Source of the DNA: Armatimonadia bacterium
GTDB taxonomy: Bacteria; Armatimonadota; Zipacnadia; Zipacnadales; JABUFB01
Assembly (NCBI GenBank): GCA_039679385.1
Contig: JBDKVB010000074.1
Span: 1 to 64,000, forward strand
Direction of reading: 5' to 3'
DNA: 64,000 nt
Part shown: in pieces, positions 6,998 to 54,861 of the stretch
Layout: each line of letters opens with the position of its first letter
Numbering within the stretch: position 1 is the first letter of the stretch
Program-made: the position numbers and the translations under genes
The notes under the pieces: generated by a model
The model's database searches: none
Told to the model about the DNA's origin: nothing
The model's input: only the letters and a program-made list of their open reading frames with translations

Positions 6998-7095
6998 TGG
7001 CGGGGGCGTGTGGGAATCGGACCCACCCGGGACATCTCTCAATGCCCCACGACGGGTTTGAAGCCCGCGAGCACCACCAGGCACCATCCGCCCCC
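6998..7095 (-). tRNA. selC: tRNA-Sec (anticodon UCA)
   Basis: On the minus strand a 98-base tRNA ends in an encoded CCA. The acceptor stem GGGGGCG pairs with CGCCCCC, with discriminator G. The anticodon stem-loop is GCGGG-CTTCAAA-CCCGT, giving anticodon UCA. There is a long extra arm and a T-stem GTGGG/CCCAC. The length, long variable arm and UCA anticodon are diagnostic for selenocysteine tRNA. The T-loop reads TCCGATT rather than TTCGATT, a small oddity. It lies downstream of selD on the same strand and may be co-transcribed with it. Confidence 0.93.
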
Positions 7096-7153: not shown

Positions 7154-8215
7154 CTACCCGGCAGTTCCTTCCCCGAGGAAGGTGAGCCGTCCGGCCGCTT
7201 CGGCTTCCACCTCGCCCACATGCACCACCTGGACTCCTCGCGAGGCCATTGTCTCCAGCGCCGGTTCGAGGGCATCCTCCGGCAGGGCGATCAGCAGCCC
7301 GCCCGAGGTCTGCGGGTCGCACACCAGCTCGATCTGCGCCTCAGACCCAGCGCCGAAGTCGGCATCTTGCCCGTAGTACTCGCGATTGCTCGCCCCGCCA
7401 CCGGTGACGGTCCCTTCGGCCGCATGACGGAGAGCACCGGGCAGCAAGGGCAAGCGGTCCCACCAGAACCTCAGCCCCACACCACTCGCCTGGGCCAGGA
7501 CCTGCGCATGACCAATCAGGCCGAAGCCGGTGATGTCCGTGGCTGCGTGGGCGCCGAACTCGACCATCGTCTCAGAGGCAGCCTTGTTGAGGGCCGTCAT
7601 CGACGCGGTAAGCGCCGCCAGTTCCTCCTCGCTGATCTTGTCGCCCAGCATCGCCGTGACAAGCACCCCGGTCCCCAGCGGCTTGGTCAGCACGAGCTGG
7701 TCACCCGGCTGCGCACCGGCATTGGAGACCAGCTTGTGCGGGTCGACAAGCCCCAGTACCGCCATCCCGTAGTAGGGCTCCGGGTTGCTCATCGTGTGGC
7801 CGCCGGCGACCGTGACTCCTGCCCCCGCAGCCTTCGACATACCACCGTGCAGGATCTGCGTGAGGATCTCCGGCGGCAGTCCGACCTGCGGGAACCCGCA
7901 CACGTTGATCGCCAGGATGGGACGGGCACCCATGGCCCAGACGTCGCTGAGGCAGTTGGCCGCCACGATCTCGCCGAAGACGTGCGGGTCATCATGGATC
8001 GGCGTCAAAGCGTCTACGGTGAACACGACCGCCTGATCGGGAGCAAGAGCATACACCGCCGCATCATCGCCGGTTTCGTTGCCGATGATGAGGTTGGGGT
8101 CCACGAAGGTGGGAAGTCCTCGCAGAACCTGCGAGAGGGCTGCCGCCCCGAGTTTAGCCGCTCACCCAGCGCAGGAACTGGTCTGGGTGAGGCGGATGCG
8201 CTCTCGATCAGACAT
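7154..8215 (-). CDS. selD: Selenophosphate synthase, itself a selenoprotein (in-frame UGA = Sec18)
   Basis: SelD makes selenophosphate from selenide and ATP, the Se donor for Sec-tRNA. From the ATG at 8215 the frame reads MSDRERIRLTQTSSCAG, then TGA (8164-8162), then AAKLGAAALSQVL, and continues without a stop for 335 more residues. The TGA falls exactly at the catalytic Cys/Sec of SelD (family pattern CAG[C/U]AAK). Later motifs are GDDAAVYAL, FTVDALTPIHDDPHVFGEIVAAN, NVCGFP, GGHT and the CDPQTSGGLL block. Full length is 353 residues, normal for SelD. GGGAG lies ahead of the ATG. Without Sec decoding the gene would be called from an internal GTG at 8104 and lose its active site. Confidence 0.93.
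8119..8148 (-). promoter_or_regulatory. Candidate bacterial SECIS region in selD
   Basis: Two hairpins follow the selD UGA on the mRNA. The nearer is GGGC-GGCA-GCCC (8148-8137), with its loop 18 bases after the codon. The next is a perfect 7-bp stem CUCGCAG-GUU-CUGCGAG (8135-8119), with its loop about 34 bases after. Both fall in the usual bacterial spacing; which one SelB binds is not decidable by eye. Confidence 0.5.
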
Positions 8216-8428
8216 TGGGCTCGACTCCCTCAGTGGTAGCGACGTCGACGGTACCCCCTTCTCTCCTTACGGTCAGAAACCTCTTTGCCCTTGGTACCCC
8301 CGTGAGCTTCCGATCCCGAAACACGCCGGAAACGCCACCGAAAGGCCGGGGAAACACCAGAGTGCGAAAGTGACTGCAGCTCAGTCGAGCACGTGATCTT
8401 GCGGCTGGCAGAAAGGACGTGTTCATCG

Positions 8429-50841: not shown

Positions 50842-51999
50842 CTAGAGCGCGATCGGGTAGACGCCGTAGCGCTCACGGCACTGCTTCATCCTCTTCAGGT
50901 TCTCCGGCTTGCAGCCGACCGCGAGCGAATGGCTGGAGCCCAGGATGAACCCTCCGCCGGGCGCTGCCCACTTCATGCAGTAGCGAGCGTCCTCCTCGAT
51001 GTCCTGCGGCGATCCCAGGACCAGGTGCTCGTGCCAGATGCCGCCCCAGAGCGTGAGCTTATCTCCGTAACGCTCCTTGAGCTGCTTCATGTCCATTCCG
51101 CCGCTGGCCTGGATGCCCTCGTACCCGTCATACCCCGCTCGGCAGACCGCGGGAAGCGCCTCCCAGACACAGCCGCAGCAATGCATCAGCACCGTCAGCC
51201 CGAGTCCATGGGCGCGCTTGATGTACTCGGCCCACCAGGGCTCCACGTTCTCCTCCAGGATGCTGGGCCTGGCGAAGAGGCTGGTGGAGCTGCCCAGGTC
51301 GTGGCAGGGCATGACCGAGTCCACGCCCTCCTCGGCATACCAGGGTAGCTGAGCCATGAGGCGCTTGGCGGTGAGCTCGGCGACCTTGGCATGCAACTCG
51401 GGGTGCAGCGCGAGGTTGAGGAACTGCTCCTCGTCCGTCGGGCCTACCACGGGGAAGCCCATGCCGCCGACGCAACTGTTGATCCAGTGCGTCTGCTTCT
51501 TGAGCTTCACCACATGGCGCAGGACCTCCCAGCAGGAGTCGTCGGGCTTCTGCGGCGGCTCAGACTCCAGCCGGTCGATCTGCCCCTGCAGCGACTCGAC
51601 GGTGGGGAGCTGGTAGCCCTCCGTGTTCACCTTGTAGGGCATGAGGTCATGCGTCGTGGCCGAGATGCGGAACAGGTTGCCGTTCCCCGCCTCGAAGGTC
51701 TCCTGGTCGAGTTGCTTGAGGGCTGCGGGCTGATAGCCGGCACCCGCATTCTGGCCGACGGTGATGATGTCGAAGCCCAGGGCATCGGCGAGGTCGGGGA
51801 GGTCGCGTTTGTGGGACTCGACGATCTCGTCGCGACGGCCGTCCCAGTAGCCCTTCGTCTGCTTGAACTTCGCCTGGACCCAGGTCTCGCGGCCCAGGGT
51901 CATCTCGTAGATGTTGTAGTCGATCGAGTGCTCGCCCCAGGGGACGAGGTCCGGCTCCTGATGGCGCAGGGTCGTCTCAACGCGTTCGCGGGGTAGCAA
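50842..51999 (-). CDS. Uroporphyrinogen decarboxylase (URO-D) family protein
   Basis: A 385-residue TIM-barrel protein of the URO-D superfamily. It starts LLPRERVETTLRHQEPDLVPWG, the usual opening, and has VDSVMPCHDLGSS, LMHCCGCVWEALP and GGIWHEHLVLGSP. These distant members are usually methyltransferases or corrinoid partners, not heme enzymes, and the HCCG motif could bind a metal or methyl carrier. I chose a TTG start at 51999 because AGGAGG lies eight bases upstream and residues before it look random and overlap the next gene. The substrate is unknown. Confidence 0.8.
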   Translation of the reverse strand: MLPRERVETTLRHQEPDLVPWGEHSIDYNIYEMTLGRETWVQAKFKQTKGYWDGRRDEIVESHKRDLPDLADALGFDIITVGQNAGAGYQPAALKQLDQETFEAGNGNLFRISATTHDLMPYKVNTEGYQLPTVESLQGQIDRLESEPPQKPDDSCWEVLRHVVKLKKQTHWINSCVGGMGFPVVGPTDEEQFLNLALHPELHAKVAELTAKRLMAQLPWYAEEGVDSVMPCHDLGSSTSLFARPSILEENVEPWWAEYIKRAHGLGLTVLMHCCGCVWEALPAVCRAGYDGYEGIQASGGMDMKQLKERYGDKLTLWGGIWHEHLVLGSPQDIEEDARYCMKWAAPGGGFILGSSHSLAVGCKPENLKRMKQCRERYGVYPIAL

Positions 52000-52166
52000 G
52001 GGATTGGCCTCCTGATGGCGCCGGGATGTGGTCGGGAGACTTCGACTCCGGGCGCACGGGCTCCTGCTTGAATCTGACGGCGGTATCAGGAAGGATATGT
52101 CGCTGTAGGGGTCGAATATGTCGAAGTTCGTTCTCGCCGCAATATCCTGGTAGAAGGAGAGGGGCC

Positions 52167-53402
52167 ATGAAGCGAGCCTTGCTCTGCACCGCCCTGTTGG
52201 CCGGCCTGCTGACAACGGCGGTCGCTGCTCCCCCGGGCTTCATCACTGACCTGGGTCAGGCCGAGGCCCAGGCAGCCTCGACCGGCAAGCTGATCTTCGC
52301 GTACTTCAACCTACCTGGGTGACCGTACAGCGCACAGGTAGAAGCCGTGTGCTTCTCCAAGCCTGCTTTCCGCGTCGTTTCCTCTGCCTATGTTCTGCTG
52401 GAACTGAACGAGGCCACCGCGTCTGAGACCATTGCAGACTACGAGGTCGACACTTTCCCGAACTTCGCCGTGCTCGATGCCGAAGGGGAGGTACTCCTCC
52501 CACCTAACTCAACGCTGACTCAGGTTGTCTGCTCCTCCCCGCCGGTCCAGACCGTATCGTCACTGCTCGGCTACCACTACCAGTCCTGTCTGGAAGGTGG
52601 TGGGACGCCCTGCAGGGCCGACATAATCCTCCAGCACCTGACCCTCCTCACCTCTACTGAGCAGTCGGCTGCGGCCGAGCAGTGGCTCCAGAAGAGCCTG
52701 ACAAACCCAAAGGCCAAGCCGGAGGATGTGAGAGTGCTCAAGGTGTACAAGGCGCTCTCGCTGCGCCGTGCGGGGAAGAAGGCCGAGGCGCTGGCGCTGC
52801 TAAAGGAAGTCGAGCCGAAGCTGACCTTCCAGGAGCCGGAGGCCGAAGCGGTCGCTGAGACAACACCGAAGGGTTCCATGACGCCGCGGCAGGTGGAGCC
52901 CTTCGTGGTGAGTGACGGCAAGGTGACCCTCGGGCGGATCTCCAGCGACGCCGATCCGCAACTGACGTCGAAGGCGCTCACCTGGCTCAGCGCTCTCCCC
53001 GTCGGAGCGGGGATCCCGTCGCCCGAGGGCAAGGAGCCTGGAGAGCTGCTGACCGGAGCCGTCTCGCTCGCGGCGGTGCTCAACAAGCCGCTGGTCGCCG
53101 CACCGTGGCTTGCGGCCTACAAGACGGCACTGGGTGACAAGGCCTTCGAGGGCGCTACGTCGGCGATACTTGCCGATGGCCTGATCCTCCTGGCCGAGGG
53201 GAACCTGAAGGAGGGCGCTCGCCGGTTGATGGCCTTCGTGCAGACCGCACCGGAGGAGAGCTTCGCGCCGTGGGCCGGAGTGGTGGCCTACGAAGCGGCG
53301 AGGAAGGCCGGTGACCTGACCCTCTCCGAGACCTATGCCCGCCAGGTCTCCGACATCTACGGGTCGCGGCTCTCCGAGGACCTGAAGGTGCGTCTGGGCT
53401 AG
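52167..53402 (+). CDS. Exported thioredoxin-fold selenoprotein candidate 1 (Sec52, UxxS)
   Basis: Read with UGA as Sec, the gene gives 411 residues. A signal peptide ends at TTAVAA, followed by GFITDLGQAEAQAASTGKL, the strand LIFAYFNLPG, then U52 (TGA at 52320-52322) and PYSAQVEAVCFSKPAFR. FPNFAVLDAEG carries the cis-Pro of a thioredoxin fold (P98), so U52 takes the place of the first Cys of CxxC. The frame stays open for 359 codons after the TGA. The C-terminal 250 residues look helical, TPR-like. Cys normally second in CxxC is Ser55; Cys62 could resolve. AAGGAGA precedes the ATG at 52167. A frameshift-free pseudogene with one stop is the alternative. Confidence 0.75.
52330..52352 (+). promoter_or_regulatory. 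SECIS-like hairpin after the first Trx UGA
   Basis: Stem GCGCAC/GTGTGC (one G-U pair), a bulged A, an inner GG/CC and the loop UAGAAG. The loop begins 17 bases after the UGA, inside the bacterial SECIS window. Confidence 0.6.
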
Positions 53403-53430
53403 CGGCGACACGACCACCACACGATCTCGC

Positions 53431-53479
53431 CGGGGGCAGAGCACCTCTTCCAACAGCCGGAAGGGGAGCGCTGTCCCCG
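53431..53479 (+). repeat. Conserved hairpin after Trx-like gene 1
   Basis: An outer 9-bp stem CGGGGGCAG/CTGTCCCCG (one G-T pair) with an inner TTCC/GGAA. The same structure, with changed bases, follows gene 2 at 54889. It may be a terminator or a processing signal. Confidence 0.6.
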
Positions 53480-53622
53480 TAGCGTTTCCGGAGGCCATCG
53501 CCGTGCGACACCTCGCCCTTCGGGAGGGGACAAGGACCAGCGTCGGCAGGAGGTGTCGGTCTGCAAGGAGAATAGGGAAGAGTTCGTTCTGGCGCTCACA
53601 ACCTGGCAAAAGGAGGAGGCCC

Positions 53623-54861
53623 ATGAAGCGAGTCCTGCTTTGCACCGCTCTGCTGGCCGGCCTGCTGACGACGGCCGCGGCAGCTCCCCCGGGCTTCATC
53701 ACGGACCTGGGCCAAGCCGAGGCACGCGCAGCCTCGACCGGCAAGTTGATCTTTGTGTACTTCAACCTACCTGGGTGACCGGGCTGCACACAGGTAGAAG
53801 CCGTGAGCTTCTCCAAGCCTGCTTTCCGCGTCGCGTCGTCTGCTTTCGTTCTGCTTGAACTGGCCTACGGTAAGGCCAACAAGGACATCGCGCAGTGCGG
53901 TGTCCGCTCCTTCCCGAACTTTGCAGTGCTGGACGCCGAAGGGAAGGTCCGCATCCCGCCGAACTCGATGCTGACCGGGGTGGTCATGAACAAGCCGCCG
54001 GTCGAGACTGTGTCGGCGCTGCTGAGCTACCACTATCGCTCCTGTCTCGAGAGCGAAGGGACGCCGTGCAGGGCCGACGTGATCCTGCAGCACCTGGCCT
54101 TCCTCAGAGCCTACGGGGAGACGACAGCGGCCGACGAGTGGCTGCAAAAGAGCCTCGCAAACCCGAAGGCAAAGCCGGAAGACGTGAAGGTGCTGAAGGT
54201 GTACAAGGCCCTGGCGCTGCGCCGTGCGGGGAGCAAGACCGAGTCGCTGGCGCTGCTGAAGGAAGTCGAGCCACAGTTGTACTTCCAAGAGCCGGAGGCT
54301 GAAGTGGCCGTCGTCGGCACGACTCCCAATGATTCCATGACGGCACCGCAGGTGGACCCCTTCGTGGTGAGCGACGGGAAGATGACCTACGGGCGGGTTT
54401 CCAGCGATGCCGACGCGCTCTTGACGACCAGGGCGCTTGCCTGGCTCAGCGCTCTCCCGGTCGGTGAGGGCATACCCGGTCCCGAAGGCAAGGAGCCTGC
54501 GGAGCTGCTCACCGGGGCGGTCTCGCTCGCGGCCGTGCTGAACAAGCCGATGCTCGCTGAGCCCTGGCTCGCGGCCTACAAGACGGCGCGGGGTGAGAAG
54601 GCCTTCCAGGGAGCGATGTCCGGCGTCCTTGCCGATGGCCTGATCCTGTTGGCGCAGGGCAAGCTGACAGAAGGCGCTGCCCGCCTGATGGTCCTGATGC
54701 AGTATGCACCGGAGGAGAGCTTCACGCCCTGGGCCGGCGTGCTGGCCGTCGAAGCAGCGAGGAAGGCCGGCGACAAGACCGCTGCCGAGGGCTATGCCCG
54801 GCAGATCACCGACACCTACGGACCACGACTTGCCCAGGAACTGAAGACGCGTCTGGGCTAG
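53623..54861 (+). CDS. Exported thioredoxin-fold selenoprotein candidate 2 (Sec52, UxxC)
   Basis: Paralogue of the gene 220 bases upstream, 412 residues if UGA is Sec. A signal peptide (LLAGLLTTAAAA) precedes LIFVYFNLPG, then U52 (TGA at 53776-53778) and PGCTQVEAVSFSKPAFR. The active site is UPGC, a proper Sec-x-x-Cys redox motif, and SFPNFAVLDAEG has the cis-Pro. The second domain keeps SCLESEGTPCRADVILQHL and helical repeats. AAGGAGGAGG lies ahead of the ATG. The same codon is UGA in both copies, which argues strongly against random stop mutations. A periplasmic oxidoreductase or peroxidase role is inferred. Confidence 0.8.
53786..53808 (+). promoter_or_regulatory. SECIS-like hairpin after the second Trx UGA
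   Basis: Stem GCACAC/GTGAGC with one A-A mismatch, the same bulged A, GG/CC and UAGAAG loop as copy 1, at the same distance (17 bases) from the UGA. Confidence 0.6.

Follow-up and report, generated by a model that had tools for sequence, protein, structure and literature searches.

Thioredoxin-fold selenoproteins with a UxxC active site are as such a well-known kind, and a 2026 inventory of prokaryotic selenoproteins, which mentions neither PF13899 nor Armatimonadota, includes several UxxC thioredoxin-like families as well as the VPGUxxT and Trx7/PDZ proteins (PMC13188914). Exported Cys-form proteins of the Thioredoxin_7 family (PF13899) resemble the gene pair described here in fold, position of the CxxC motif, cis-Pro and signal peptide, whereas the pair has a predicted Sec for Cys, LPGUP rather than xWCGxC, and 280 C-terminal residues without detectable relatives. 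The VPGUxxT thioredoxin-like (seleno)protein NF041383 has the PGU motif and the Trx fold in common with the pair, which carries UPGC/UPYS instead of UxxT, and copy 2 matches it weakly (E 0.019; 14.6 bits, where the cut-off is 275). Similarly, the thiol:disulfide interchange selenoprotein (PF13098; PMC13188914) shares UxxC and a Trx-like fold with the pair, whose scores of 22.2 and 18.5 bits lie under the gathering score of 27, and the Trx7/PDZ (seleno)protein NF041199 shares the Thioredoxin_7 fold but has a CxxU motif (PMC13188914), with a score of 10.8 bits against a cut-off of 300. No NCBIfam cut-off was reached by the pair.

The two genes lie in a stretch of 64,000 nucleotides from an Armatimonadia bacterium (positions 1 to 64,000 of contig JBDKVB010000074.1), hereafter the window. 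According to our analysis both of them, with a probability of about 0.93, encode selenocysteine in an exported thioredoxin-fold protein.

Results

A tandem gene pair interrupted by TGA at codon 52

The initial annotation had described two diverged genes, each with a lone TGA at codon 52 after YFNLPG, about 360 open codons beyond it and a cis-Pro motif following, and the coordinates and frames of the pair agree with this description:

52167..53402, + strand: copy 1 gene, predicted exported Thioredoxin_7-domain protein, 411 aa, residue 52 predicted Sec (TGA), active-site motif UPYS
52320..52322, + strand: predicted Sec codon of copy 1 (codon 52, in-frame TGA)
53623..54861, + strand: copy 2 gene, predicted exported Thioredoxin_7-domain protein, 412 aa, residue 52 predicted Sec (TGA), active-site motif UPGC
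53776..53778, + strand: predicted Sec codon of copy 2 (codon 52, in-frame TGA)

The copies are tandem paralogues with 74% protein identity over the aligned full length, and both retain the TGA in the context YFNLPG-U-P, followed by 359 and 360 open codons, respectively, and by a cis-Pro-like T/S-FPN at residues 96-99. Since their upstream and downstream flanks also look alike by eye, the duplication probably spanned whole transcription units.

When the TGA was read through, the joined proteins matched Pfam Thioredoxin_7 (1.1e-6 and 6.5e-6), the whole protein scoring 29.1 bits in copy 2, above the gathering score of 27, and 26.6 bits in copy 1, just under it. Run alone, the segment of copy 2 before the TGA and the segments of both copies after it had no Thioredoxin_7 match. 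Comparison of copy 1 with copy 2 gave 71/49/122 differences at the three codon positions and a dN/dS after the TGA of 0.32 (95% 0.23-0.44), so that selection on the downstream frame, judged by these substitutions, is still purifying and not relaxed. Within the thioredoxin part dN/dS was 0.47 after the TGA compared to 0.10 before it, which fits functional divergence, but weaker constraint too. GC3 was roughly the same on both sides of the TGA.

Active sites and domain architecture

The active site reads UPGC in copy 2 and UPYS in copy 1, and the two motifs suggest divergence from dithiol-type to monothiol-type sites. At residue 62, copy 1 has Cys where copy 2 has Ser. Judged by its sequence, the N-terminus looks like a signal peptide ending in AxA. 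For the C-terminal part, the best Pfam matches were all under cut-off (TPR_5, E 0.039; ARM_TT21, 0.0055), and an AlphaFold model showed paired helices at low confidence (mean pLDDT 49, from a two-row alignment), which makes a TPR-like tail probable on weak grounds. Of the earlier proposal of exported UxxC/UxxS oxidoreductases with a TPR-like tail, the active-site motifs stood, and the TPR-like nature of the tail has weak support from these sub-threshold matches and the modelled helices.

Two further genes, a Cys gene of the same genome (L090, CEFC) and a TGA gene of another one (L061), likewise combine a signal peptide, a Trx domain and a TPR-like tail, indicating that the architecture recurs. 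BLASTP gave no significant match between L090 and the pair, and by profile the Trx part alone aligned, with low probability.

Codon 52 in homologues of Armatimonadota

Searching 291 Armatimonadota genomes with a profile built from the pair gave matches in 104 of them, almost all limited to the thioredoxin domain, where identity to the pair was mostly 23-38%. In the fetched matches aligned to the profile, most sites had Cys in column 52 (34 distinct Cys sites, corresponding to the leading Cys of CxxC), and a handful of relatives had neither Cys nor TGA there. TGA occupied the column at ten loci, spread over eight other genomes (two each in G146 and G205, one each in G174, G096, G217, G218, G222 and G163). 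The distinct TGA sites number nine, the sequences from G218 and G222 being identical. Eleven of the fetched matches were listed as having a TGA in frame, and in 10 of these it falls exactly at column 52. G220 was rejected as a Sec case, having in-frame stops off the active site and Cys at column 52; this genome is absent from the list of SelA matches.

SelA matches were found in all eight genomes with TGA loci and in 148 of 291 overall (hypergeometric P 0.004), a test that counts G096 on weak matches only (7.5e-12) and would be slightly weaker if mis-binning has put one contig into both G218 and G222. The L066 and L067 proteins are identical though G218 and G222 are assigned to different genera, and a cross-binned contig is possible.

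Neither a full-length relative of the pair nor, with it, a Cys-containing orthologue of full length was found in the 291 genomes of the phylum, and the pairing of Cys with Sec is that of the thioredoxin domain. Likewise, no relatives came up when genome and viral contigs were scanned by pattern for the pair, and the lone match to the C-terminal part in the phylum (G093) was dismissed as chance, the ORF there looking unrelated and, in our reading, TsaB-like.

The TGA genes L061 (UGWC) and L062 (UPAC) have the predicted Sec at the pair's column; the thioredoxin domain of the pair is distantly similar to theirs, but its C-terminal part has no detected similarity to them. L061 (G205:C1) appears to encode an exported thioredoxin-like protein with the same arrangement as the window pair. 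L062 (G096:C242) holds adjacent TGA-bearing thioredoxin-like genes, for a DsbD-like membrane protein ending in a UAVC domain and then for the smaller UPAC protein. In addition, L063, L065 and L066-L068 encode exported proteins of about 320 aa whose N-terminal part is DUF2092-like (sub-threshold in that of L063) and which end in a UxYC thioredoxin domain, and these represent a probable further selenoprotein family in Armatimonadota.

Selenocysteine machinery

A tRNA-Sec and SelD, which the initial annotation had placed in the window, were both located there on the minus strand:

6998..7095, - strand: tRNA-Sec, anticodon TCA, adjoining selD
7154..8239, - strand: selD, with an in-frame TGA of its own at residue 26 (SCAGU)

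We take residue 26 in SCAGU to be the known Sec/Cys active-site position of SelD. Selenophosphate synthetase is therefore probably itself a selenoprotein here, and the TGA of selD speaks independently for the use of Sec in this genome. A check of the window's genome for selA and selB found both.

The region downstream of the UGA

Probable SECIS regions follow the UGA directly in both copies:

52323..52365, + strand: probable bacterial SECIS region of copy 1, hairpin GCGCAC-AGGUAGAAGCC-GUGUGC
53779..53821, + strand: probable SECIS region of copy 2, loop AGGUAGAAGCC as in copy 1, outer stem weaker with an A.A mismatch

The copy 1 hairpin just 3' of the TGA has a folding energy of -13.1 kcal/mol, which was matched by 1 of 60 shuffles (<2%), whereas copy 2 forms this shape less well and has more stable alternative folds. 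Between the copies, codons 51-70 contain zero synonymous changes in about 14 sites, compared to about 0.4 per site gene-wide; this conservation falls where a SECIS hairpin should lie and could reflect it, although local gene conversion is an alternative. In a SECIS-like search TGA sites averaged -6.7 kcal/mol and Cys sites -3.8, a modest difference. An inverted repeat surrounding the UGA (CUACCUG/CAGGUAG) was set aside because the downstream hairpin fits the SECIS model better, and Rfam matches in the region were dismissed as being at chance level only.

Genomic neighborhood

The pair is flanked by a divergent URO-D family gene and by genes for a Crp/Fnr-type regulator, a hybrid-cluster (Prismane) protein and hemerythrin, a neighborhood that does no more than suggest a role in nitrosative or oxidative stress. 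In a genome of the same family (G002), uroD, crp and hcp occupy the equivalent place, and no thioredoxin-like pair was detected by tblastn, implying that the pair was gained here or lost in G002. At the place of the pair in G002 (L080, 5095-5980) there is an apparent small Cys-rich exported protein on the strand opposite uroD. The named relatives of the uroD gene are Armatimonadota MAGs, bar one from Clostridia, and this assigns the window to that phylum. URO-D family genes (50842-52215, - strand, in the window, and relatives) are strongly expanded in the order, with 34-62 matches per genome. A TGA in the uroD orthologue of another genome (G007) was not considered Sec, as it lies just 5' of the conserved region and close to where the gene probably begins.

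Discussion

The open frame, the homology, the equivalence of Cys and Sec at column 52, the Sec genes and the purifying selection, all of them read from the sequence, make it close to certain that UGA at codon 52 is to be predicted as selenocysteine. None of the outcomes that the initial annotation had named as refuting its reading was seen: relatives show Cys or TGA in column 52, the downstream frame stays under purifying selection, and the genome has selA and selB. We propose that a tandem duplication gave rise to two genes for exported thioredoxin-fold selenoproteins, in which SelB and tRNA-Sec would decode the codon 52 UGA as Sec, aided by a SECIS hairpin starting no more than about 10 nt after it. 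Directed by its signal peptide, the protein would cross the inner membrane, and Sec52 would there act as the attacking residue of a UxxC centre in copy 2 or a UxxS centre in copy 1, and the helical, probably TPR-like C-terminal part may bind a partner or substrate.

If the TGA were instead a true stop, the locus would hold two decaying pseudogenes, or a 51-residue secreted peptide together with a separate protein initiated at a downstream GTG (52347 and 53803), and such GTG ORFs of 351 and 352 aa do exist, with AGG a few bases upstream. A protein begun at these GTG codons, however, would start within the thioredoxin domain and lack the signal peptide as well as the first strand and active site. 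Moreover, the TGA has been kept at the exact Cys column in both copies, it occurs in the same column in other genomes, and purifying selection goes on past it, all of which renders a true stop very improbable. Scarcely credible, in our view, is the decoding of this TGA as another residue, either Trp or the product of near-cognate readthrough, because the homologous residue is Cys and not Trp, of 26 larger ORFs checked in the window 11 end at TGA as a normal stop codon, and all Sec genes are present in the genome.

An alternative of a different nature accepts Sec insertion but regards the proteins as selenium-based peroxidases or metal/metalloid-binding proteins on a TPR-like scaffold instead of thiol-disulfide reductases; it differs from the selenoprotein reading above in chemistry alone, and the probabilities of the two overlap. 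The UPYS motif of copy 1, without a resolving Cys at the usual place, the large C-terminal part without relatives, and the finding of no DsbD transmembrane domain (DsbD_TM) in the window's 96.6%-complete genome are in its favor. On the other hand, UxxC is retained in copy 2 and the nearest families are thioredoxin/DsbD-like, and we consider this alternative unlikely. With regard to the selenoprotein reading, we would tentatively guess, at somewhat less than even odds, that copy 2 works as a selenol-thiol reductant or isomerase, with copy 1 being a monothiol-type variant similar to glutaredoxins or peroxidases.

The earlier designation of the proteins as new holds at the family level, since the searches turned up no relative over the full length and the NCBIfam scores all stayed below their cut-offs; exported thioredoxin-fold proteins with Sec are already known, and what is new is the two-gene family and its place in Armatimonadota. 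The pair likely represents a family of exported selenoproteins specific to this lineage, with a unique helical domain at the C-terminus and duplicated UxxC and UxxS forms, within a wider, undescribed spread of thioredoxin-like selenoproteins in Armatimonadota. In the open literature searched, no paper was found that brings together Armatimonadota and selenocysteine, and a search for Armatimonadetes and selenoprotein gave only one match, which by its title concerns Planctomycetes.

Since standard gene calling stops or misstarts at UGA, both proteins are probably absent from automatic annotation. The pair indicates a little-described selenoproteome in Armatimonadota, and its UxxC and UxxS members would provide a natural test of the role of the resolving Cys when the attacking residue is Sec.
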